Virus record (IMG/VR): IMGVR_UViG_3300050035_000540
Coordinates: 1-41,534 of that record
Direction: 5' to 3' (one strand)
From: a virus
DNA length: 41,534 nt
The position numbers and the translations under genes were made by a program. Shown piece by piece: positions 18,595 to 39,222 of this stretch (position 1 is the first letter of the stretch; every line of letters starts with the position of its first letter). The notes under the pieces were generated by a model, which worked only from the letters and a program-made list of their open reading frames with translations, was not told the DNA's origin and ran no database searches.

Positions 18595-19764
18595 ATGAAA
18601 TATAAAACATTTAAATATAGGATATATCCAAATAATGAACAACAAGAATTAATATTAAGACATATTGGTTGTTCTCGTTGGATATATAATTATGGTTTAG
18701 AGAAAAAAATTAAATCATATCAAGAAACAGGTAAAGGATTGTCAATGTTTGATATTAAAAAAGAATTACCAATACTAAAGAAATCTGAAGATACTAAATG
18801 GTTAAAGGAAGTTAATTCTCAATCATTACAAGAATCATTGGTTCATTTAGATAAAGCATTTACTAAGTTTTTTAAAGAAAAAAAGGGATTTCCTAAATTT
18901 AAATCAAAAAAGAATAACCGTCAAACTTTTTCAATACCACAAAGTACAATAGTTAATTTTGAGAATAATACTATTGATATTCCTAAATTTAAAAAATCGA
19001 TTAAAATTATACTACACAGAAAATTCGAAGGTAAAATAAAAACATCAACAATAAACAAAACATCAACAGATAAATATTTTATATCAATTTTAGTTGAATT
19101 AAATGAAAATAATCCAATAAAAAAACCAATTTGTGAAAGTCAAGCAATTGGTATTGATTTGGGTATTAAAACATTTGCAACATTATCTAATAGTGTTGAA
19201 ATTAAAAATCCTAAATACTTACGTAAGTCACTTAATAATTTAAAAAAAGCACATCGTAAAATGAGCAAAAAAATAAACGGAAGTAATAATTATAAAAAAT
19301 CTGTTAAAAATTTAGCAATTTTACATGAAAAAGTGGCTAATAAACGTTTGGATTTCTTACATAAAACAACACATTATTTAACAACTAATTACGATACATT
19401 ATGTTTAGAAACATTAAAACCTTGTAATATGATTAAAAATCATAAGTTGGCACAAGCATTAAATGACATTGCTATTGGTAAATTTAATGAAATACTTGAT
19501 TATAAAGCTGAATGGTATGGTTGTAATGTATTAAAAATAGGTCAGTTTGAGCCAAGTAGTAAAATGTGTAGTTGTGGTGTTATAAATAAAGAATTAAAAC
19601 TAAGCGATAGGACATGGACATGTAAAAGTTGTAGTGTTACTCATGACAGGGATTTATTGGCAGCAAATAACATCAAACATTTTGCTTTTTTAAAAAATAA
19701 TACGGCAGGAACTGCCGAAATTCACGCTTATGGAGATATGAACGAGATTACTCGTTCAGCCTAA
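18595..19764 (+). CDS. tnpB: TnpB RNA-guided nuclease (IS200/IS605 family)
   Basis: A 389-residue TnpB. The N-terminal OrfB domain starts KYRIYPNNEQQELILRHIGC. The RuvC-like nuclease has its three acidic residues in GIDLGIKTFATLS (about residue 190), LCLETLKPCN (about 275) and HDRDLLAANNI (about 360). The zinc finger reads C-S-C ... C-K-S-C; the first pair has one residue between cysteines instead of the usual two. TnpB proteins cut DNA matched by an omega RNA made from the element's right end; in a phage this could favour element retention or attack competitors. All catalytic residues are present, so it may be active. Confidence 0.92.
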   Translation: MKYKTFKYRIYPNNEQQELILRHIGCSRWIYNYGLEKKIKSYQETGKGLSMFDIKKELPILKKSEDTKWLKEVNSQSLQESLVHLDKAFTKFFKEKKGFPKFKSKKNNRQTFSIPQSTIVNFENNTIDIPKFKKSIKIILHRKFEGKIKTSTINKTSTDKYFISILVELNENNPIKKPICESQAIGIDLGIKTFATLSNSVEIKNPKYLRKSLNNLKKAHRKMSKKINGSNNYKKSVKNLAILHEKVANKRLDFLHKTTHYLTTNYDTLCLETLKPCNMIKNHKLAQALNDIAIGKFNEILDYKAEWYGCNVLKIGQFEPSSKMCSCGVINKELKLSDRTWTCKSCSVTHDRDLLAANNIKHFAFLKNNTAGTAEIHAYGDMNEITRSA

Positions 19765-24813: not shown

Positions 24814-24843
24814 TTGTATTTATAATTTTAATGCATATATTTG
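24814..24843 (+). promoter_or_regulatory. Bacteroidota-type promoter of leader 1
   Basis: A -7 box TATATTTG (24836-24843) with TTG at 24814-24816 for the -33 element. A GTATTTATA box (24816-24824) is embedded, so host and phage signals may both act here. Confidence 0.55.
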
Positions 24844-24877
24844 CAAGGATTTTGTTTTAATAAATGTTTTGAAGAAG

Positions 24878-24952
24878 ATGAAAAGATTAACAAACATACA
24901 ACCCCAACCGCAGCAACATCCACAGATGTCTGAATGGGGAAGCTATGCTTAA
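24878..24952 (+). CDS. leader peptide 1, Gln/Pro/His-rich
   Basis: A 24-codon ORF. Codons 8-16 (24899-24925) read Q-P-Q-P-Q-Q-H-P-Q, exactly the three amino acids served by the tRNAs of array 1. The codons used are CAA, CCC, CAA, CCG, CAG, CAA, CAT, CCA, CAG. The final codons (Glu-Trp-Gly) form the antiterminator arm. GAAGAAG just before the ATG may help initiation. The peptide is probably a sensor of translation rather than a functional product. Confidence 0.75.
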   Translation: MKRLTNIQPQPQQHPQMSEWGSYA

Positions 24953-24990
24953 ATCTTTTTATCAAAAAGAAGTTTTAAGGTTAGACATGA

Positions 24991-25020
24991 AACCCCATTC
25001 GCAAGGATGGGGTTTTTGTT
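24991..25020 (+). terminator. terminator hairpin of attenuator 1
   Basis: AACCCCAT/ATGGGGTT stem with 8-nt loop and a T-rich tail, ending 12 nt before the first tRNA of array 1. Confidence 0.8.
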
Positions 25021-25031
25021 TTTTGATATAT

Positions 25032-25125
25032 CGGGTAGTGAGCGAGTGGATGAAGCTGCTGGTCTTGGAAACCAGTGACGGCACAAAGGTAGTGTCGTCC
25101 GTGGGTTCGAACCCCACCCGCCCGA
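25032..25125 (+). tRNA. tRNA-Pro(TGG) with 25-nt variable arm
   Basis: Acceptor CGGGTAG/CCGCCCG (one A-C mismatch), anticodon arm CTGGT-CTTGGAA-ACCAG, and T arm GTGGG-TTCGAAC-CCCAC. The variable region holds an 8-bp stem GACGGCAC/GTGTCGTC. Anticodon TGG by 7-nt loop geometry. C1-G72 and A73 are proline features. A serine tRNA read one base out of register (GGA) is the alternative. CCA is not encoded. Confidence 0.7.
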
Positions 25126-25135
25126 AGTAGTTGAA

Positions 25136-25194
25136 GTTAAATTACCTGCACGTGGTAACTACTGCACAATCGAAAGATTGACTAAAAATTTAAC
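25136..25194 (+). ncRNA. small three-way-junction RNA in array 1
   Basis: Terminal stem GTTAAA/TTTAAC encloses TTACC-TGCACGT-GGTAA and CAATC-GAAA-GATTG. The size is under that of a tRNA and no T arm is present. Function unknown. Confidence 0.45.
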
Positions 25195-25195
25195 G

Positions 25196-25209
25196 AGTTC
25201 TTTGACATG
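25196..25209 (+). promoter_or_regulatory. boxA-like AGTTCTTTGACATG, copy 1
   Basis: The same 14-mer occurs at 34567-34580 in array 2. It resembles rRNA antitermination boxA (TGCTCTTTAACA in E. coli). Its TTTG could instead be the -33 element of the HNH gene promoter, with TATATTTA at 25226-25233. Confidence 0.45.
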
Positions 25210-25247
25210 ATACGATTAATTTTTATATATTTACAAAAAATAAATGT

Positions 25248-25757
25248 ATGAGAAATATAAAAGATGTTTTATTTGAGGCAAAAAGAAAAGGATACCATTC
25301 TGATATGAATGGCAATATATTTTCATCAAAAAAGAAAATTGCATTACGTAAATCAAATCAAAATAGATATAATTTTACTATTAGATTTTATGGTGAAAGA
25401 GTAACAATTGCCGTACACAAATTTATTGGTTATTTGAAATTCGGTGATGAAATATTTAAAGAAGGTATTGAAATAAGACATTTAGATGATAATTCATTAA
25501 ATAATTCATGGATTAACATCGGTATTGGAACACATATTGAAAACATGGGTGATATTCCAAAAGAAACAAGAATTAAAAGAGCAGTTAATGCTACTAACTA
25601 TGTTAGACGTTTTAACGATAATACAGTAAAAGAAATAATTAATGATAGAAATAATGGATTTACATATGTACAATTATGTGATAAATATAATACAAGCAAA
25701 TCTACATTAAGTTACTTTTTCAATAATGCTCAATATAGTAAAATAAAAACAGAGTAG
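25248..25757 (+). CDS. HNH homing endonuclease inside tRNA array 1
   Basis: A 169-residue HNH protein. HKFIGYLKFGDEIFKEGIEI leads to RHLDDNSLNNSWINI and GTHIENM, the core of the HNH family in which His-Leu-Asp and Asn-Asn replace the classic H-N-H spacing. Residues about 120-160 form a helix-turn-helix (VKEIINDRNNGFTYVQLCDK) that would bind DNA. Its TAG stop (25755-25757) lies within the first six bases of the next tRNA-Pro, so insertion was exact at the tRNA border. Probably a selfish gene using the conserved tRNA as target. Confidence 0.8.
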   Translation: MRNIKDVLFEAKRKGYHSDMNGNIFSSKKKIALRKSNQNRYNFTIRFYGERVTIAVHKFIGYLKFGDEIFKEGIEIRHLDDNSLNNSWINIGIGTHIENMGDIPKETRIKRAVNATNYVRRFNDNTVKEIINDRNNGFTYVQLCDKYNTSKSTLSYFFNNAQYSKIKTE

Positions 25758-25826
25758 TTGGGGAGTTGGTCACCCCGCCACATTTGGGATGTGGAGAACT
25801 CGTGAGTTCGAATCTCACCTACTCTA
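25752..25826 (+). tRNA. tRNA-Pro(TGG)
   Basis: Acceptor AGAGTAG/CTACTCT, D stem GGGG/CCCC, anticodon arm CCACA-TTTGGGA-TGTGG, T arm GTGAG-TTCGAAT-CTCAC, A73. No CCA encoded. The 5' end overlaps the HNH stop codon. Confidence 0.9.
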
Positions 25827-25828
25827 CT

Positions 25829-25904
25829 GTGCTAAGTGTAGATGTTGGCATTCTTCACCTGACTGTGAATCAGGGTTTCGTGGGTTCGATTCCCATTTAG
25901 CACC
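25829..25904 (+). tRNA. tRNA-His(GTG)
   Basis: Acceptor GTGCTAA/TTAGCAC, anticodon arm CCTGA-CTGTGAA-TCAGG, T arm GTGGG-TTCGATT-CCCAT, C73. The base before position 1 is T rather than the usual G(-1). No CCA after the discriminator. Confidence 0.88.
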
Positions 25905-25991
25905 AAAATATCGTTTAAAAATACGATAATTTAAAAATATCGTGTGTAGATAGCATAATTAGTATTTATGCATTGAAAATACGATAATTTT

Positions 25992-26068
25992 CGGGGTGTA
26001 GTTCAGTTGGTTAGAATGGGTGCTTTGGGAGCATCAGGTCGCAAATTCGAGTTTTGCCATCCCGACCA
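25992..26068 (+). tRNA. tRNA-Pro(TGG), CCA encoded
   Basis: Acceptor CGGGGTG/CATCCCG with A73 and CCA, anticodon arm GGTGC-TTTGGGA-GCATC, T arm GCAAA-TTCGAGT-TTTGC. Carries the same anticodon as the tRNA at 25752 but a different body. Confidence 0.92.
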
Positions 26069-26071
26069 TAT

Positions 26072-26148
26072 GGTGAGCGTAGTTCAGTTGGTAGAACACC
26101 AGATTGTGGTTCTGGTAGTCGCAAGTTCAAATCTTGTCGCTCACCCCA
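26072..26148 (+). tRNA. tRNA-His(GTG), CCA encoded
   Basis: G(-1), acceptor GTGAGCG/CGCTCAC, C73 then CCA. Anticodon arm CCAGA-TTGTGGT-TCTGG. Carries the standard histidine G(-1):C73 pair. Confidence 0.92.
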
Positions 26149-26189
26149 AATCGGCAATAAATTAATAAAATTGCCAAAAATGTGATATT

Positions 26190-26330
26190 ATGAAAAAGGG
26201 TAACAAACAAAATGCCTTCCTTAATGGCGAATGGGCAGCACACATGCGTAAATGGGGTAAATCTTTCACCGCCAAAATACGCAGAACTGTTGACAAAAGG
26301 GTTATTAGGGAAGAACTTAAAAATACATGA
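26190..26330 (+). CDS. 46-residue basic protein within array 1
   Basis: A short ORF between tRNAs encoding a strongly basic protein (MRKWGKSFTAKIRRTVDKR) of unknown family. A GGCAAT/ATTGCC hairpin (26153-26175) precedes it and an AAAGTC/GACTTT hairpin follows. Composition suits RNA or DNA binding; whether it is translated is unproven. Confidence 0.5.
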   Translation: MKKGNKQNAFLNGEWAAHMRKWGKSFTAKIRRTVDKRVIREELKNT

Positions 26331-26376
26331 TAAAATAAAGTCTGACTTTAAATTATCACGTATATAAGTGATATAT

Positions 26377-26449
26377 TGTCTCGTGGTGTAATGGTTAACA
26401 TGTTTGACTCTGAATCAAAAGAGTGCAGGTCCGACTCCTGCTGAGACAA
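26377..26449 (+). tRNA. tRNA-Gln(CTG)
   Basis: Acceptor TGTCTCG/TGAGACA, anticodon arm TTTGA-CTCTGAA-TCAAA, T arm GCAGG-TCCGACT-CCTGC, A73. No CCA. Confidence 0.9.
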
Positions 26450-26453
26450 CAAA

Positions 26454-26541
26454 AGTGATGAACATAAAAAACCTGGTAATCCAGTGCCGTGGGTTTAAAA
26501 GATATCTAATCAACCCACACGGTTAGAGCACCTGCATCACT
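26454..26541 (+). ncRNA. tRNA-sized structured RNA of unknown class
   Basis: Terminal 7-bp stem AGTGATG/CATCACT spans the gap between two tRNAs. Inside are CTGG-TAAT-CCAG and a long hairpin CCG-TGGGTT / AACCCA-(CA)-CGG. There is no TTCRA T loop or 7-nt anticodon loop. The piece GGTTAGAGCACC looks like a tRNA D arm, hinting at a tRNA origin. Confidence 0.5.
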
Positions 26542-26547
26542 CAATAT

Positions 26548-26630
26548 AGTCCTTTGGCAGAATGGTCATTGCATCAGTCTTTGAAGCTGACACCCCAACG
26601 GGTTTGTAAGTTCGAATCTTACAGGGACTA
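26548..26630 (+). tRNA. tRNA-Gln(TTG) with 15-nt variable arm
   Basis: Acceptor AGTCCTT/AGGGACT, anticodon arm TCAGT-CTTTGAA-GCTGA, T arm GTAAG-TTCGAAT-CTTAC, A73. The variable region contains CCC/GGG. The D arm GGCAGAATGGTCATTGC resembles serine tRNAs, but the loop at positions 34-36 reads TTG, not TGA. Confidence 0.68.
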
Positions 26631-26640
26631 CTAAATGTTC

Positions 26641-26670
26641 TTTGAATTGTCGTATTTATTATTATCTTTG
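26641..26670 (+). promoter_or_regulatory. Bacteroidota-type promoter
   Basis: TTTG (26641-26644), 18 nt, TATCTTTG (26663-26670); directs the last tRNA-Gln of array 1. A GTATTTATT box is embedded at 26652-26660. Confidence 0.7.
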
Positions 26671-26678
26671 CAAAACAT

Positions 26679-26751
26679 TGACCTTTGGTGTAATTGGTTA
26701 ACACATCTGATTTTGATTCAGGCGAGTGTAGGTTCGAGTCCTACAAGGTCA
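26679..26751 (+). tRNA. tRNA-Gln(TTG)
   Basis: Acceptor TGACCTT/AAGGTCA, anticodon arm TCTGA-TTTTGAT-TCAGG, 5-nt variable loop, T arm GTAGG-TTCGAGT-CCTAC, A73. Its 3' half is overlapped on the other strand by an HNH ORF. Confidence 0.9.
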
Positions 26752-27227
26752 ACTTTTTTACGACAACGACAATGTGTCGGTAATGTTGAATTACAGTTAG
26801 GACATAAAATTCGTAAGTTTTCTAAACGATGGTCCGAATTACGACCATTTATATGGTCAAGTATCAGACTCATGTGTTCCCCGTGCCAATTTTCGTCTTG
26901 TCCACATTTTTCACAAATTCGTTCTTTTAATCCTTCTTCATACAAACGATTTTTAATATTACCCACATTTGTATATGTTGACCCCGACACTAATATTTTA
27001 CTTGTAAGAAATCTTCGAGAATCATTTAATTTACTGTTTGTTCTTGAATATCTTTCCACATCAGTTTCAAAATGAGAAATATTAATGTTATATAGTTTTA
27101 CGTATTTTTTTAATATCGGTCTTGAATTGCCTTTAATACCCAACCCCATTTTTTGTAAAACTTCAGTGTAATTCTTTGAACATTTAACTATGGGTTCGAA
27201 ATTTTCCTTTAAATATTTTGCTTTCAT
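26718..27227 (-). CDS. HNH homing endonuclease, C-terminally truncated
   Basis: A 169-residue HNH protein close to the 34750 and 36184 products: GLKERICEKCGQDENWHGEH, then LILDHINGRNSDHRLENLR and CPNC give the zinc-bound beta-beta-alpha core. The two relatives continue into a helix-turn-helix (TGKKYGVSDN-type), which is missing here. The reading frame instead runs into the opposite strand of tRNA-Gln(TTG) and ends VGLEPTLA, a translation of the tRNA's T arm. It is therefore truncated at the tRNA and may bind DNA less specifically. Confidence 0.78.
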   Translation of the reverse strand: MKAKYLKENFEPIVKCSKNYTEVLQKMGLGIKGNSRPILKKYVKLYNINISHFETDVERYSRTNSKLNDSRRFLTSKILVSGSTYTNVGNIKNRLYEEGLKERICEKCGQDENWHGEHMSLILDHINGRNSDHRLENLRILCPNCNSTLPTHCRCRKKVDLVGLEPTLA

Positions 27228-27546: not shown

Positions 27547-27993
27547 ATGGGATACAACTTATTCTTAGACGATGTTCGGATGCCGAAGGATACCTTCGAC
27601 TACATGAAACTTCCAATTTATATTTCAGTCGATTGGTCCATCGTCAGGAATTACTATGCCTTTGTACAGATAATTGAAGGTAAAGGTATTCCGGATATTA
27701 TTAGTTTCGACCACGACCTTGCTGATGAACATTATGACCCAAAAATTGTTGGTACTGAATCGTATGAACAAATCTACGACATGTTTGACGAAAAGACCGG
27801 ATACCATTGTGCCAAGTGGCTTATTGACTATTGTATTGACAACAATAAAAAACTTCCTGCAGATATTTTGATTCATTCAATGAATCCTGCAGGAAGTATG
27901 AACATTAAGTCATTATTCGAAACCTATTTTAAGGTTTATAATATAGACCAATCGGGAGATATTTTTATCTTATCTACAAATAAGCGTATTTAA
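27547..27993 (+). CDS. cyclic-phosphate-processing receiver-domain protein
   Basis: A 148-residue single-domain protein. YNLFLDDVRMP at the N-terminus, ISFDHDLADE in the middle and ILIHSMNPAGSMNI near the C-terminus are the three signatures of the cyclic-phosphate-processing receiver family, a receiver-like fold proposed to act in nucleotide or RNA end metabolism. In a phage with many tRNAs, a role in RNA end repair or signalling nucleotide removal is conceivable, but no activity can be read from sequence. The last codons overlap the convergent phosphatase gene by 4 nt. Confidence 0.75.
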   Translation: MGYNLFLDDVRMPKDTFDYMKLPIYISVDWSIVRNYYAFVQIIEGKGIPDIISFDHDLADEHYDPKIVGTESYEQIYDMFDEKTGYHCAKWLIDYCIDNNKKLPADILIHSMNPAGSMNIKSLFETYFKVYNIDQSGDIFILSTNKRI

Positions 27994-29210
27994 AGTTTAA
28001 TACCAAGCACTAATATGTCATCAGTTTGGTCGTTAGTGCCTTTCCATCTTAATAATCTTTGTTCGAGTAATTGACACTGATATTCCAATCCAAGATGCTG
28101 AAAAGAATTTAATAACGTGAAGAAATTATCTTTTAATAACTTTTTATTTTCTTTCCCGCCAAATTGGTCAACATAACCATCACTATACATGTAAATCACA
28201 TCATCAGTTTCATATTTAATTTCTTGTGTAGGGAATATTTTTTCAATTCTATAATCTACACCGCCAACTAAATATGGATTACCTTTATATGTGGTAATCT
28301 TTTTCTCGCCCTTCATCAAATATAATAATGACCTCTGGCATCCACAGTAATATATTTTCTTTTCGGTTTTATTAATTGATATCAATGCTAAATCAATTCC
28401 ATCTTGATATCCATCACCGGATGACTGATTTAATACTTTACAAATATGCGCATCAAGCCTGGTTAATATGTCTGTAGGATTATTGGTACAAGTTTCATCT
28501 GCCAAAATCTCATTTAAGAAATTACTGCCAAGCATTGCTAATAGCGCACCAGACACACCATGTCCCGTACAATCAGCAACAACAACAATAATATTGCCAT
28601 TTTTTTCGGCAAACCAATAAAAATCACCACTAACAATATCTTTGGGTTTATAAAATACAAATGCTTCACTAAAATTTTTTAATAAGAAATCAATTTTTGG
28701 GAGTGTTAGTGCTTGTATTCTTGCCGCAAATATAATGCTTTGGGTTATGGTCTTCTTTTCTTCTTCAATTATCTTATATGACCTTTCTAATTCTTTGTTC
28801 ACATTTTCCAAATTAGCCACTTCATCCCTATACAGATTTTTTAAATACGCATTTTCAATTGAAAACGGTAAAAAAGATAAATGGTCATTATTGACATAAT
28901 CATCAAATCCTTCTTTAAGTATCTCAATAGCAAATTCATCATTAATTGTACCTGAAAGCAGAATACACAAAATGTCTGGATATGTGCTTTTTGCAAGCCT
29001 AAATGCTTCCAAAGAATTAAATCCTTCAGGTAAAACATGACTACATATCATCACATCAATCTTATTGTTTTCTAATATAGAAATGAAGGATTTTCTATCG
29101 CTTGCAATTAATATATCTGTGGTATATTCGTTGTTTTTCAATAAATTAGAAATCAACTCTGCTTGGATTTCAGAGTTATCCAATAGAAGTATTTTAGCAG
29201 AATCTTTCAT
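27990..29210 (-). CDS. receiver-like domain + SpoIIE/PP2C phosphatase
   Basis: A 406-residue regulator. Residues 1-120 have the receiver fold (ILLLDNSEIQAELISNLL), but the usual phospho-acceptor aspartate is replaced in MICSHVLPEG, so the domain is probably not phosphorylated. A helical linker (ELERSYKIIEEEKKT) leads to a SpoIIE-type PP2C serine phosphatase from about 160: KPKDIVSGDFYWF, VVADCTGHGVSGALLAMLG and TDDILVLGIKL supply metal-binding aspartates. In Bacteroidota such proteins act in phospho-switches. In a phage it might alter host stress or sigma-factor control. It lies 5 nt after the hendecad-repeat gene. Confidence 0.85.
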   Translation of the reverse strand: MKDSAKILLLDNSEIQAELISNLLKNNEYTTDILIASDRKSFISILENNKIDVMICSHVLPEGFNSLEAFRLAKSTYPDILCILLSGTINDEFAIEILKEGFDDYVNNDHLSFLPFSIENAYLKNLYRDEVANLENVNKELERSYKIIEEEKKTITQSIIFAARIQALTLPKIDFLLKNFSEAFVFYKPKDIVSGDFYWFAEKNGNIIVVVADCTGHGVSGALLAMLGSNFLNEILADETCTNNPTDILTRLDAHICKVLNQSSGDGYQDGIDLALISINKTEKKIYYCGCQRSLLYLMKGEKKITTYKGNPYLVGGVDYRIEKIFPTQEIKYETDDVIYMYSDGYVDQFGGKENKKLLKDNFFTLLNSFQHLGLEYQCQLLEQRLLRWKGTNDQTDDILVLGIKL

Positions 29211-34159: not shown

Positions 34160-34189
34160 TTTGGAATTAAGAAAACTTTACTATCTTTG
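34160..34189 (+). promoter_or_regulatory. Bacteroidota-type promoter of leader 2
   Basis: TTTG (34160-34163), 18 nt, TATCTTTG (34182-34189). Near-consensus for the -33/-7 promoters of Bacteroidota; start of transcription expected near 34196. Confidence 0.75.
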
Positions 34190-34234: not shown

Positions 34235-34327
34235 ATGAAAAAATTATTCGACATATTGATGGCAGTCCTCATGGTGGATGTCCTATTATGGGCAGCCGAA
34301 GAGGATAAGCTATGTACAGTCGGGTAA
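34235..34327 (+). CDS. leader peptide 2, Leu/Trp/Glu/Asp run
   Basis: A 30-codon ORF; an in-frame ATG at 34202 would add eleven residues including four Thr. Codons 17-24 (34283-34306) read L-L-W-A-A-E-E-D using CTA, TTA, TGG, GCA, GCC, GAA, GAG, GAT. Array 2 encodes Leu(TAA), Trp(CCA), Glu(TTC), Glu(CTC) and Asp(GTC), the matching set. The final codons ACA-GTC-GGG-TAA form the antiterminator arm. Probably a translation sensor. Confidence 0.75.
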   Translation: MKKLFDILMAVLMVDVLLWAAEEDKLCTVG

Positions 34328-34362: not shown

Positions 34363-34400
34363 AAACCCGACTGTCGCAAAATGGTCGGGTTTTTTGTTTT
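34363..34400 (+). terminator. terminator hairpin of attenuator 2
   Basis: AAACCCGAC/GTCGGGTTT with 12-nt loop and T-run. Confidence 0.85.
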
Positions 34401-34590: not shown

Positions 34591-34677
34591 GGTCTCAGGA
34601 GCTGCTTGGCGTGGCTGCCGGACTGTCACTCCGGAACGGATAATACCGACAGGTGGGTTCGAATCCCATTGGGACCG
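34591..34677 (+). tRNA. tRNA-Asp(GTC) with 18-nt variable arm
   Basis: Acceptor GGTCTCA/TGGGACC, D stem AGCT/GGCT, anticodon arm CCGGA-CTGTCAC-TCCGG, T arm GTGGG-TTCGAAT-CCCAT, G73. The variable region AACGGATAATACCGACAG holds a CGG/CCG stem. Loop and discriminator equal those of the normal tRNA-Asp at 35379. Confidence 0.7.
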
Positions 34678-34682
34678 CAATG

Positions 34683-34714
34683 TTTGATTATATGATAATT
34701 ATTGTTTATCTTTG
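34683..34714 (+). promoter_or_regulatory. Bacteroidota-type promoter
   Basis: TTTG (34683-34686), 20 nt, TATCTTTG (34707-34714), followed by a GTATTTATA box (34727-34735) 14 nt before the HNH ATG at 34750. Confidence 0.7.
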
Positions 34715-34749
34715 CCGAACTATCACGTATTTATATAAAACACTTTGCT

Positions 34750-35388
34750 ATGGACATAGATAAATTAAAAGCAATTATTGCAGAATCAAATAGCACTACC
34801 GAAACATGCTTTAAATTATATGGTAATAAATTATACGGTAATAGAATAACAATAAAAAAATATATTAATCAACATAATATTGATATATCACATTTCGGAA
34901 CAAATAACGGAAATGTTCGTTCAAATAAATTTATTAAAACACCACTATCAAAAATATTAATATCTGGCTCAACATACAATACGACAAATTTAAAAGAAAG
35001 ATTGTATGATGAAGGAATAAAAGAACGTAAATGTGAGTTATGTGGACAAGATGAAAATTGGCATGGTGAACACATGAGTTTAATTCTTGACCATATTAAT
35101 GGGATAAATAATGACCATAGACTTGAAAATTTGAGAATTGTTTGTCCTAATTGTAACGCAACCTTACCAACATTTAGTGGAAAAAATGTAAAACGAAATA
35201 AAAAAAAGAAAATTACACGTTTAGAACAATCTGTTATTCAACGTAAAGTTAAACGTCCATCATTCGAACAACTTCAAAATGAAATAAAAGAATTGGGATT
35301 TACTGGAACTGGAAAAAAATATGGTGTAAGTGACAATGCAATAAGAAAATGGATTAAATTTTATAATAAACATACAATACTCTCGTAG
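34750..35388 (+). CDS. HNH homing endonuclease inside tRNA array 2
   Basis: A 212-residue HNH protein. N-terminal helical region (TETCFKLYGNKLYGNRITIK, NIDISHF), central zinc/HNH core (RKCELCGQDENWHGEH, LILDHINGINNDHRLENLR, CPNCNATLP), C-terminal helix-turn-helix (GTGKKYGVSDNAIRKWIKFY). The ATG at 34750 fits the box; the frame from 34702 starts inside the promoter. The TAG stop (35386-35388) falls within the first ten bases of tRNA-Asp(GTC), so the gene is inserted flush against the tRNA. Confidence 0.85.
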   Translation: MDIDKLKAIIAESNSTTETCFKLYGNKLYGNRITIKKYINQHNIDISHFGTNNGNVRSNKFIKTPLSKILISGSTYNTTNLKERLYDEGIKERKCELCGQDENWHGEHMSLILDHINGINNDHRLENLRIVCPNCNATLPTFSGKNVKRNKKKKITRLEQSVIQRKVKRPSFEQLQNEIKELGFTGTGKKYGVSDNAIRKWIKFYNKHTILS

Positions 35389-35453
35389 GCTTCTTGGTGA
35401 AGAACTTGGCTGTCACCCATGTAAAATAGAGGTTTCGAATACCTCCGGGAGTG
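35379..35453 (+). tRNA. tRNA-Asp(GTC)
   Basis: Acceptor ACTCTCG/CGGGAGT, anticodon arm CTTGG-CTGTCAC-CCATG (one T-T mismatch), 7-nt variable loop, T arm GAGGT-TTCGAAT-ACCTC, G73. Confidence 0.85.
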
Positions 35454-35461
35454 CAATCTCA

Positions 35462-35534
35462 ACCGAATGAAAGTAGGTTACTGGTGAATACTGGCTCGTA
35501 TGTCAGCTACCGATTCGAGTCGAATCAGTCGGTG
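35462..35534 (+). tRNA. degenerate tRNA-like element, possibly Thr(CGT)
   Basis: Acceptor-like ACCGAAT/AGTCGGT (one mismatch) and D-like AGTA/TACT. The anticodon region CTGG-CTCGTATG-TCAG has an 8-nt loop, and the T region GATTCGA-G-TCGAATC folds as a plain hairpin. It may be a decayed tRNA or another structured RNA. Confidence 0.3.
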
Positions 35535-35565
35535 CTCGGTGCAAAAAACAGTTCGGAGATTATAT

Positions 35566-35646
35566 GCAGCGTTATACAAACGGCTAAAGTAGGCAGACCT
35601 TCAATCTGTCCCGAAAGGTTCGGGGGTTCGAATCCCCCACGCTGTA
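35566..35646 (+). tRNA. tRNA-Glu(TTC) with 12-nt variable arm
   Basis: Acceptor GCAGCGT/ACGCTGT, D stem TAC/GTA, anticodon arm GCAGA-CCTTCAA-TCTGT, T arm GGGGG-TTCGAAT-CCCCC, A73. The variable region can form CCGAA-AGG-TTCGG. Position 33 is C instead of the universal U. Confidence 0.6.
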
Positions 35647-35649
35647 CGC

Positions 35650-35777
35650 TAAATATCTTAGGTAAACGTGATAGAAAGTATGTTAGAATAGGGCAATGTC
35701 GGATACCGACAGAGTGCCGCCTGGCTCCCCATCAGGACTTCAGAAGATAATTAACTTCACCGCAGAATAGATATTTA
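35650..35777 (+). ncRNA. structured RNA between two tRNA-Glu genes
   Basis: Terminal stem TAAATATCT/AGATATTTA exactly fills the gap between tRNAs ending at 35646 and starting at 35781. Inside, GGCA/TGCC encloses GTCGG-ATA-CCGAC, next to CCTGG-CTCCCCA-TCAGG, which looks like an anticodon arm for Gly(CCC). No T arm follows. Confidence 0.5.
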
Positions 35778-35780
35778 CAC

Positions 35781-35852
35781 GCTCGGTTCTTCTAACGGTA
35801 AGGAAAATAGACTCTCAATCTATGAATGCGGTTTCGACTACCGCACCGAGTA
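35781..35852 (+). tRNA. tRNA-Glu(CTC)
   Basis: Acceptor GCTCGGT/ACCGAGT, anticodon arm ATAGA-CTCTCAA-TCTAT, T arm GCGGT-TTCGACT-ACCGC, A73. Confidence 0.88.
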
Positions 35853-35857
35853 CAAAC

Positions 35858-35932
35858 TTTCCCATCGTCTAATTGGTTCAGGACATCACCCTTTCACGGT
35901 GGGGATTATGGGTTCGAGTCCCGCCATCTGCA
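35858..35932 (+). pseudogene. tRNA-Glu(TTC)-like, acceptor stem unpaired
   Basis: The inside matches a bacterial tRNA-Glu: TCGTCTAATTGGTTCAGGAC, then an anticodon arm with loop CTTTCAC and a TTCGAGT T loop. The 5' end TTTCCCA cannot pair with the 3' end CATCTGC and the T stem is weak. Probably a recombined pseudogene. Confidence 0.6.
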
Positions 35933-35962
35933 CGACCTTATTTTGGATAACGAAGCAAATAG

Positions 35963-36009
35963 TTCCAAACACTTAGGCACGAAGTCATGGTTCGTGAATA
36001 AGGACAACT
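35963..36009 (+). ncRNA. small hairpin element before tRNA-Leu
   Basis: CACGAA-GTCATGG-TTCGTG hairpin within an outer stem AGTTCC / GG(AC)AACT, ending at the base before tRNA-Leu. Confidence 0.3.
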
Positions 36010-36083
36010 GCCCCGTTGATGTAACTGGTAACCATACCTGTCTTAAAAGCAGTTTTCTCTCAGTCCGAATCTGAGACGGGGTA
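36010..36083 (+). tRNA. tRNA-Leu(TAA) lacking the long variable arm
   Basis: Acceptor GCCCCGT/ACGGGGT, D stem ATG/CAT, anticodon arm CCTGT-CTTAAAA-GCAGT, variable loop of only 5 nt (TTTCT), T arm CTCAG-TCCGAAT-CTGAG, A73. Bacterial leucine tRNAs normally have a long arm. Confidence 0.75.
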
Positions 36084-36161
36084 CAAATTTTTTGAATTTA
36101 ATATGATTATCGAACTTAAAGGATTATATTTGCAAAAACAATACCTTTTAAGATTTTTAAA

Positions 36162-36170
36162 GTATTTATC
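36162..36170 (+). promoter_or_regulatory. GTATTTATA-class box
   Basis: GTATTTATC ending 13 nt before the HNH ATG at 36184; a host-type TATATTTG box lies upstream at 36125-36132. Confidence 0.5.
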
Positions 36171-36183
36171 ATAAAATTCTAAA

Positions 36184-36921
36184 ATGAAATATAATAAAGA
36201 AGTTTTAACACGATTTGTAAAAGAAAGTAATTCAATTGCTAATGTGCTTAAATTACTTAAATTGAAACCTGCAGGTGGAAACTATAAAACAATATTAAAA
36301 AAATTCAATGAATATAATATTGATACATCGCATTTTTTGGGAATGGGATGGAATAAAAATAAAAAACTGCATCAAAAATACAGCAAAGAAGAATTTATTA
36401 AAAAATTCTTAGTTGTTAATTCCACATATACTAATACACATAGATTAAAACTAAAATTGTTTGAATTTGGATTAAAAGAAAGAAAGTGTGAAAAATGTGG
36501 TCAGAGTGAAATTTGGTTTGGAGAAAAATTAAGTCTGCATTTAGACCACATTAATGGCATTAATAATGATTATCGTTTAGAAAATTTAAAAGTGTTGTGT
36601 CCAAATTGTCATTCACAGACATCCACATATTGTGGAAAAAATGTTGATAAGAAAAAATATAAAAAACATGAAAACATTAATTATTGTTCATGTGGTGCTC
36701 AGATAAAAAATAATAGTACTAAATGTCAAAAATGCCATCATGAAAATTTACGTAAGGTTAAATCACGACCAACATATGGTGAACTAATTAATAATATTAC
36801 TTTTTCTGGTGGATATACTGCAACAGGAAAAAAATATGGCGTTTCGGATAATACAATACGTAAATGGCTTAAATTCTATGAAAAACAAATTAACACATCG
36901 GTAGTTCAGTTGGTAGAATAG
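36184..36921 (+). CDS. HNH homing endonuclease overlapping tRNA-Trp
   Basis: A 245-residue relative of the 34750 product with the same order: helical N-terminus (NIDTSHF), HNH core (RKCEKCGQSEIWFGEK, LDHINGINNDYRLENLK, CPNCHSQ), an extra four-Cys zinc knuckle (NYCSCGAQ, KCQKCHHE) and a helix-turn-helix (ATGKKYGVSDNTIRKWLKFY). The first HNH His is replaced in GEKLS, where relatives have GEHMS. The last nine codons lie inside tRNA-Trp, which supplies the ending TSVVQLVE, the deepest gene-tRNA overlap in the window. Confidence 0.85.
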   Translation: MKYNKEVLTRFVKESNSIANVLKLLKLKPAGGNYKTILKKFNEYNIDTSHFLGMGWNKNKKLHQKYSKEEFIKKFLVVNSTYTNTHRLKLKLFEFGLKERKCEKCGQSEIWFGEKLSLHLDHINGINNDYRLENLKVLCPNCHSQTSTYCGKNVDKKKYKKHENINYCSCGAQIKNNSTKCQKCHHENLRKVKSRPTYGELINNITFSGGYTATGKKYGVSDNTIRKWLKFYEKQINTSVVQLVE

Positions 36922-36967
36922 TGCTCTCCAAAAGCAAAGGTCGGGAGTTCGAGCCTCTCCCGGTGTG
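36895..36967 (+). tRNA. tRNA-Trp(CCA)
   Basis: Acceptor ACATCGG/CCGGTGT, anticodon arm GTGCT-CTCCAAA-AGCAA (outer pair mismatched), T arm GGGAG-TTCGAGC-CTCTC, G73. Confidence 0.85.
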
Positions 36968-36976
36968 CAATAAAAT

Positions 36977-37048
36977 ACGTCTGTCGTCTAATGGCTAAGA
37001 TAACGGCTCCCAAACCCGTGGATGAGGTTTCGATTACTTCCAGACGTG
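36977..37048 (+). tRNA. tRNA with expanded anticodon loop, Trp(CCA) or Gly(CCC)
   Basis: Acceptor ACGTCTG/CAGACGT, D stem GTCT/AGAT, T arm GAGGT-TTCGATT-ACTTC, G73. The anticodon stem is ACGG/CCGT with nine unpaired bases CTCCCAAAC. Read from T33 the anticodon is CCC; by centred geometry it is CCA. A1-U72 and G73 favour Trp. Confidence 0.7.
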
Positions 37049-37053
37049 CAAAA

Positions 37054-37189
37054 TGAAGTGATAGTAAAAATCGCAGGTATGTACTGCAGGTTGGCGTTCA
37101 GTCCAAATGAACTAAGAGCACAACGACCACTGAGGGCAGATTTATCTGTGCCTAAGAGCAATATCAGTTAGCAGTACACTACCACTTCA
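37054..37189 (+). ncRNA. 136-nt multi-hairpin RNA closing array 2
   Basis: Outer stem TGAAGTGATAGT / ACTACCACTTCA (one G-T type change), second stem TGTACTGC/GCAGTACA, and inner hairpins GTTCA-GTCCAAA-TGAAC and CAGAT-TT-ATCTG. No coding frame and no tRNA arms. Comparable in setting to stable RNAs C and D in the T4 tRNA cluster. Confidence 0.55.
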
Positions 37190-37227
37190 GAGATTCCTAA
37201 TATTTTCAAATTTTGGATAAATTAGGA

Positions 37228-38844: not shown

Positions 38845-39194
38845 GGGGCAGCCTGGTTTTGACAGCGTGGCAGAGTGGTATAGTAAGCAAGTGGTAGTTG
38901 AATCAGACTACGTTAAAAAGGTTCAAAACAACAAACGCAGAAGACATAATGTCTATTCCAACTTCTCTTACGAGAGGTAATGCAGTATTCGCAAGAAACG
39001 CTGAACTCGCAATCGCAGCATAAGGAAACAAAAAACTCAGCAAAGAACCTTCCGGCTTAAGGAAGCAAAAGACAAGACGGATTGTTGATGTTCCGCAAAC
39101 ATCAGATATTTCGCTGAATTAGAAAATTCAGATAAACTTGTAGAAAACGTATTAGTCGCATGACTGGACAAGGGTTCAACTCCCTTCTGCTCCA
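38845..39194 (+). ncRNA. ssrA: transfer-messenger RNA
   Basis: Complete 350-nt tmRNA. The tRNA-like ends pair as GGGGCAG/CTGCTCC with T arm AAGGG-TTCAACT-CCCTT and A73; GGGGCAGCCTGGTTTTGACA is the classic tmRNA 5' end. The tag frame most likely resumes at GCA 38990 and reads ARNAELAIAA then TAA (39020-39022), ending in AA like known degradation tags. CCA is not encoded. It would rescue stalled ribosomes with a phage-chosen tag. Confidence 0.93.
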
Positions 39195-39222
39195 CTTCCA
39201 CAAACTTTTCCGCACTTCCACA

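Follow-up and report, generated by a model that had tools for sequence, protein, structure and literature searches.

A tRNA array of the virus described here is very probably controlled by a ribosome-mediated transcription attenuator of the his/trp type, which would be one of four such switches per phage. The assignment is built on anatomy, codon-to-tRNA match, conservation, covariation and predicted folds, all of which we observed. The initial annotation had read a single leader as an attenuator matched to the tRNAs behind it; homologues support that reading, which was nevertheless too narrow, as three further leaders precede three further arrays. The window (the whole stretch of DNA that was analysed) is a 41.5-kb virus record with a T4-like portal and terminase, and its nearest named relatives, such as the Flavobacterium phages immuto and the Microcystis phage Mel-JY01, are distant. 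Protein and DNA-pattern searches yielded 42 IMG/VR contigs for analysis, the window included, of up to 349 kb, and the leader-bearing family is one of large viruses of bacteria, probably Bacteroidota. The window also carries a lone IS605 OrfB/TnpB-type gene (18595-19764; Pfam OrfB_IS605) and, unusually for a phage, a response-regulator receiver domain fused to a SpoIIE phosphatase domain (27990-29210).

Judged from its sequence, the leader 1 region carries all four segments of a classic attenuator; its features, like those of leader 2 and both arrays below, lie on the + strand. A putative promoter at 24814-24843 was recognised by pattern match (TTG-N19-TATATTTG), and TAnnTTTG stands at the matching place in nearly all aligned class 1 relatives, that is, homologues of leader 1; we call this promoter and that of leader 2 Bacteroidetes-type after the consensus of that group. 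The 24-codon ORF reported initially, with its run Q-P-Q-P-Q-Q-H-P-Q, was confirmed at 24878-24952 (MKRLTNIQPQPQQHPQMSEWGSYA; 28 distinct homologues), the run itself, which would form the sensing block, occupying 24899-24925. Pro, His and Gln together make up 39% of the peptide, compared with 8.3% of the phage proteome (binomial p = 5e-5). Hairpin segment 1 is CCCC (24902-24905), in the first Pro codon of the block, and pairs with GGGG in segment 2, the antiterminator half (GAATGGGG, 24932-24939). Segment 2 is in turn the exact reverse complement of CCCCATTC (24993-25000), bearing out with eight of eight pairs the earlier claim that part of the ORF pairs with the 5' arm of a terminator ahead of the first tRNA. 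This intrinsic terminator (24993-25020) reads CCCCATTC-GCAA-GGATGGGG-TTTTTGTT, comprising segment 3, the loop GCAA, segment 4 and a T-run, and the first tRNA of array 1 begins right after it, at 25031. Folding of the leader 1 RNA gave z = -4.9 against shuffled sequences, with hairpin 1:2 (CCCC:GGGG) and the terminator 3:4 both formed. Across the 28 class 1 sequences, which were found partly by a pattern that fixes GAATGGG and CCCCATT, 218 of 224 cells of the segment 2 pairing are paired, with one compensatory pair.

Array 1 (25031-26753) had been described as encoding, among its parsable tRNAs, Pro, His and Gln only, and ARAGORN and Infernal agree: the eight tRNAs are, in order, Pro, Pro, His, Pro, His, Gln, Gln and Gln (3 Pro, 2 His, 3 Gln), with no other isotype found by either program in this interval. 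Several tRNAs of the window with Pro, Gln, Asp or Glu anticodons are 82-96 nt long (25031-25126, 26548-26631, 34591-34678 and 35566-35647), which suggests class-II-like long variable arms, and these often adjoin a tRNA of normal length for the same amino acid; across the relatives, 81 of 460 tRNAs for amino acids other than Leu, Ser and Tyr reach 82 nt or more. Inverted repeats such as GTGATG...CATCAC and GAAGTG...CACTTC close some of the spacers between tRNAs (26452-26538, 35647-35780 and 37052-37190), the last of which is nearly identical in L003 despite different flanks, and these spacers are possibly unrecognised small RNAs or processing elements. ORFs also lie between tRNA genes (25248-25757, 34702-35388 and 36184-36921); by eye they look like HNH homing endonucleases of the kind that invades tRNA arrays, and that at 25248-25757 has a weak HNH match.

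Leader 2 repeats this organisation farther along the window. Its putative Bacteroidetes-type promoter (34161-34189; pattern match TTG-N18-TATCTTTG) precedes a 30-codon leader peptide (34235-34327; MKKLFDILMAVLMVDVLLWAAEEDKLCTVG), in which Asp, Glu, Val, Leu, Ala and Trp supply 19 of the 29 residues after Met; among its 20 distinct homologues residue order varies while these six amino acids are retained. Segment 2 (ACAGTCGGG, 34316-34324) is partnered by CCCGACTGT at 34366-34374, with covariation in relatives, and CCCGACTGT is also the 5' arm of the intrinsic terminator (34366-34395; CCCGACTGTCGCAAAATGGTCGGG plus a T-run). Array 2 (34591-37048) encodes Asp, Asp, Glu, Glu, a Glu-like remnant (35867), Leu, Trp and a Trp-like tRNA (36977-37048), the isotypes of the Glu-like and Trp-like members being read from their anticodon loops. 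ARAGORN found no Val or Ala tRNA in array 2 of the window, though leader 2 has Val and Ala codons. Just downstream the phage encodes a tmRNA (38845-39195, tag AEDIMSIPTSLTRGNAVFARNAELAIAA), as do many of the relatives, and the proximity of tmRNA-based ribosome rescue to the sensing of ribosome stalls may perhaps be no accident. We looked for a leader ahead of the separate Leu and Met tRNAs near the tmRNA and saw none.

Short ORFs of this kind, which the initial annotation had proposed seeking upstream of the tRNA arrays of related phages, were indeed found there, and their codon-to-tRNA match beats random partitions. Two further leaders were read upstream of relatives' arrays: leader 3 (MITFGTYYYGKKSYKKHFIGIGNTVSKSIGM) precedes Lys/Tyr arrays, and leader 4 (MKTYRHISAIITSTSSRNGISIFCSDFTGRNNGDDGGSGFLMR) precedes Thr/Cys/Ile/Ser/Phe/Gly/Asn/Arg arrays. 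The four leader sets (P/H/Q; D/E/V/L/A/W; K/Y; T/C/I/S/F/G/N/R) have zero overlap and cover 19 amino acids, with only Met missing. In 31 nonredundant contigs, 494 of 500 tRNAs lie behind the leader for their own amino acid (150/150 in class 1, 176/178 in class 2, 38/39 in class 3 and 130/133 in class 4), so that the regulatory codons of the leaders match the products of the genes they would control. For each leader in G002, G013 and G009, the amino acids of its own array show the top enrichment, and none of 200,000 random amino-acid partitions equalled the match in any of these three contigs; the Lys/Tyr enrichment in leader 3 is modest (29-41%). For the two leaders of the window, set against strict ARAGORN tRNA sets, 36 of 200,000 random amino-acid sets did equally well. 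Beyond array 4, G004 (39516) and G013 (268386) each carry a CTA-anticodon tRNA, labelled Pyl by ARAGORN and amber-suppressor-like.

The arrangement is also distinctive when amino-acid composition is ignored. We defined a signature (X in a short ORF, then rcX, a loop, X again and a T-run, where the first X is segment 2) and scanned for it blind to composition, as a terminator stem whose arm recurs a third time 15-130 nt upstream, within or next to an ORF of 15-50 codons. The 42 contigs (5.09 million strand-bases) gave 102 matches. In 93 of these a tRNA follows within 1.5 kb, and the remaining nine include a leader 1 cut by a contig end; first-order shuffled contigs gave a single match in 4.85 million. 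Several of the 42 contigs are near-duplicates. Pattern matches in two contigs of the set (G030 and G032), together with L213, L215, L218-L220 and L224, were discarded as chance, since these contigs or loci lack tRNAs. The leader 1 pattern had 0 matches in bacterial and archaeal genomes, and a comparison with 50,697 GenBank phage records gave no match to the DNA of leaders 1 and 2 and, to that of leader 4, nothing beyond 30-nt matches in Staphylococcus phages, at the level of chance. Two huge phages with weak local similarity were considered and rejected: LR756504 lacks a leader peptide at its Lys/Tyr/Gln/Asp tRNA array, and LR756500 has no tRNA in the part examined.

Both the peptide and the RNA of the leaders appear, from patterns of substitution, to be under selection. 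Across 72 distinct leaders, with in-frame indels within the block, a short, translated-looking ORF lies between promoter and terminator, and synonymous changes exceed nonsynonymous ones in every class (pN/pS of 0.41, 0.58, 0.76 and 0.69 in classes 1 to 4). As the initial annotation had anticipated for a true attenuator, the homologous leaders retain both the Pro/Gln/His block (28 distinct) and the hairpin pair, compensatory change included. Such purifying selection on conserved peptides, and a terminator behind a small gene, which is ordinary, are what one would also see if the ORF encoded a conserved microprotein of the phage, flanked by a promoter and a terminator of its own, with the tRNAs expressed separately and the codon match incidental. 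In classes 2 and 4, however, composition is conserved while order drifts (in class 2, LMAVLMVDVLLWAAEED, LMVALEAVLLWAADED, LSLVLVALLWEDDADE and LVSEMAVVLLWADAED, of constant composition), a pattern that a codon sensor should show and a folded protein should not. Moreover, the reading frame in G006, G038 and G040 stops ahead of X, so that the C-terminus is missing, and X is nevertheless retained; it is therefore kept for pairing.

The pairing of X with the terminator arm covaries as well. The class 1 hairpin pair shows a compensatory T-A to C-G change, GAATGGGG/CCCCATTC having become GAACGGGG/CCCCGTTC in G040 with the same change in G038; in class 2, CAGTCGGGT has become TGGTCGAGA with matching arms in G042; and the class 4 variants of X (GGGTTCT, GTGTCGGG, TTCGGGT, GGGTTGT and CGGGTTCAG) each have their own matching arm. 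For class 3, all 104 of 104 cells are paired between X and the 5' arm, against 92 of 104 between the terminator arms, whose stem tolerates mismatches; relatives of classes 2, 3 and 4 were sought with peptide-coding patterns, which are silent on hairpins, and the leaders entering the pairing counts all bore the signature. The 5' arm of the terminator has a second partner within or next to the ORF (8/8 in the window), giving a 2:3 antiterminator. Given this covariation, the retention of X past truncated peptides and the fit of four unrelated peptides to four tRNA sets, we consider the microprotein explanation very improbable.

A terminator/antiterminator switch ahead of tRNA-related genes could likewise point to a T-box-like element, in which uncharged tRNA, the ligand that T-boxes sense (PMC4052509), would bind the leader RNA directly and without translation. 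An Rfam search of both leaders returned neither a T-box nor any other regulatory family at the gathering score, and no T-box at a relaxed threshold; direct tRNA binding, moreover, needs no whole ORF kept at pN/pS <1. These points argue strongly against a T-box-like element, to which we assign almost no likelihood.

For the ribosome-mediated attenuator that we favour, the following scheme of translation, stalling, antitermination and trigger is what we infer. Transcription would begin just upstream, and a ribosome would translate the leader. While charged Pro, Gln and His tRNAs are abundant, it would pass through the block of leader 1 and mask segment 2, so that the terminator 3:4 forms and the array stays silent. 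Were any cognate charged tRNA scarce, the ribosome would stall in the block and cover segment 1, leaving segment 2 free to pair with segment 3 ahead of the synthesis of segment 4, and polymerase would enter the array for the missing tRNAs. If the leader were not translated, 1:2 would form and transcription would terminate. Each array would thus sense depletion of its own charged tRNAs.

Folding simulations, in which RNA under a ribosome was masked at each codon of 14 leaders, are partly in keeping with this scheme. In most of them the predicted probability of the antiterminator before segment 4 is high (mostly >0.9) for A-site positions inside the block and goes to 0 immediately after its last codons, with leader 2 of G010 fitting the pattern poorly. 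Without a ribosome the terminator dominates, and X is predicted to be paired upstream with a probability of 0.52-0.99 in the 14 leaders, segment 1 sequestering segment 2 when untranslated. At full-length equilibrium the terminator outcompetes the antiterminator in most leaders, with p(term) mostly >0.9 even with a stalled ribosome; the switch must therefore act kinetically, by timing, as trp and his switches likewise do, and attempts to gauge leader strength by equilibrium folding alone failed, as it favours the terminator in the complete RNA. The stop codon of class 3 leaders, and of a few in classes 2 and 4, falls 20-36 nt beyond X, where a waiting ribosome would leave X unmasked; the ends of class 3 and some class 4 leaders likewise depart from the simulated pattern.

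Any ribosome halted ahead of segment 2 would free it, and the leaders might accordingly sense general translation arrest, under whatever stress or drug stalls ribosomes, with codon composition secondary and no particular tRNA involved; PMC12121999 provides a precedent in uORFs that sense several ribosome-targeting antibiotics. Yet a codon match would be superfluous for a general sensor, while four leaders fit four arrays, and in most leaders the block ends at the last stall position that leaves segment 2 free. There is consequently little to recommend general arrest, and we think it highly unlikely compared with sensing of particular tRNAs.

Codon-specific stalling is more probably triggered by a loss of host tRNAs in the infected cell, such as anticodon nucleases would cause, than by amino-acid starvation, since additional tRNA genes remedy the former and not the latter. 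A T4 Rnl1-type RNA ligase (PF09511) is encoded in six of eight relatives tested, at least five of which (G004, G010, G013, G015 and G021) have the gene in the stretch separating arrays 2 and 3, and G009, the most divergent relative, encodes RtcB near array 4. Ligases beside the arrays are consistent with tRNA damage or host tRNA cleavage as the trigger, an interpretation that we regard as evenly poised. Phage tRNAs that overcome tRNA-cleaving defences are reported in PMC10264068 and PMC11555353. We hypothesize, giving the idea about an even chance of being correct, that the code is partitioned into four codon-sensing channels in which depletion, e.g., by anticodon nucleases, induces exactly the replacing array, beside a tRNA-repair ligase, as an inducible, self-diagnosing counterdefence against tRNA cleavage.

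The reason for tRNA genes in phages has been disputed for decades, and the regulation of their arrays has received hardly any attention. Here the sequence itself would state the control logic, with tRNA genes grouped under a leader that reads their own codons. If attenuation holds true, the leader measures the array's own product, charged tRNA, closing a feedback loop; ribosome-mediated attenuation would reach beyond biosynthetic operons, into phages and the machinery of decoding, and the idea that phage tRNAs answer tRNA depletion becomes directly testable. The initial claim that no phage tRNA array so controlled has been described stands for the sources searched: we found no description of leader-peptide control of phage tRNA genes in open-licence literature on this or neighbouring subjects, no such leader family in Rfam at threshold and no case among GenBank phages. 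The type of mechanism is known; no description of its target, of the sensing of many amino acids or of the division of the code was found in the sources searched.

Among known systems, the huge-phage tRNA arrays of PMC7162821 are similar in that their phages are large and rich in tRNAs, with Bacteroidetes as the predicted hosts of some, but that paper mentions neither attenuator nor leader, and the LR756504 array has no leader peptide. Counterdefence arrays (PMC10264068 and PMC11555353) resemble those described here as phage tRNA arrays that may replace cleaved host tRNAs; T5-like phages differ in that a strong promoter drives the tRNA, and codon-sensing control is absent from the passages searched. 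T-box riboswitches share transcription antitermination keyed to tRNA charging and can sense two tRNAs, as in the Clostridium acetobutylicum transamidation operon with its two-codon T-box (Saad et al. 2013, reviewed in PMC4052509), whereas they bind tRNA directly without an ORF and the phage leaders have an ORF and no T-box match. In layout the phage leaders resemble his, trp and other enteric amino-acid operon attenuators, with a short ORF enriched in regulatory codons, 1:2, 2:3 and 3:4 hairpins that exclude one another and an intrinsic terminator ahead of the controlled genes; unlike these, which control biosynthetic enzymes, the phage leaders would control tRNA genes, a single leader would sense up to eight amino acids, and four leaders with a Bacteroidetes-type promoter divide 19 amino acids among them. 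Leader peptides of the ilvGMEDA type are multivalent, carrying codons of several amino acids in one leader, and the phage leaders similarly combine codons of several amino acids with a common fate; whereas ilvGMEDA combines three amino acids, the phage leaders include sets of six and eight, and their output would be the tRNAs themselves.
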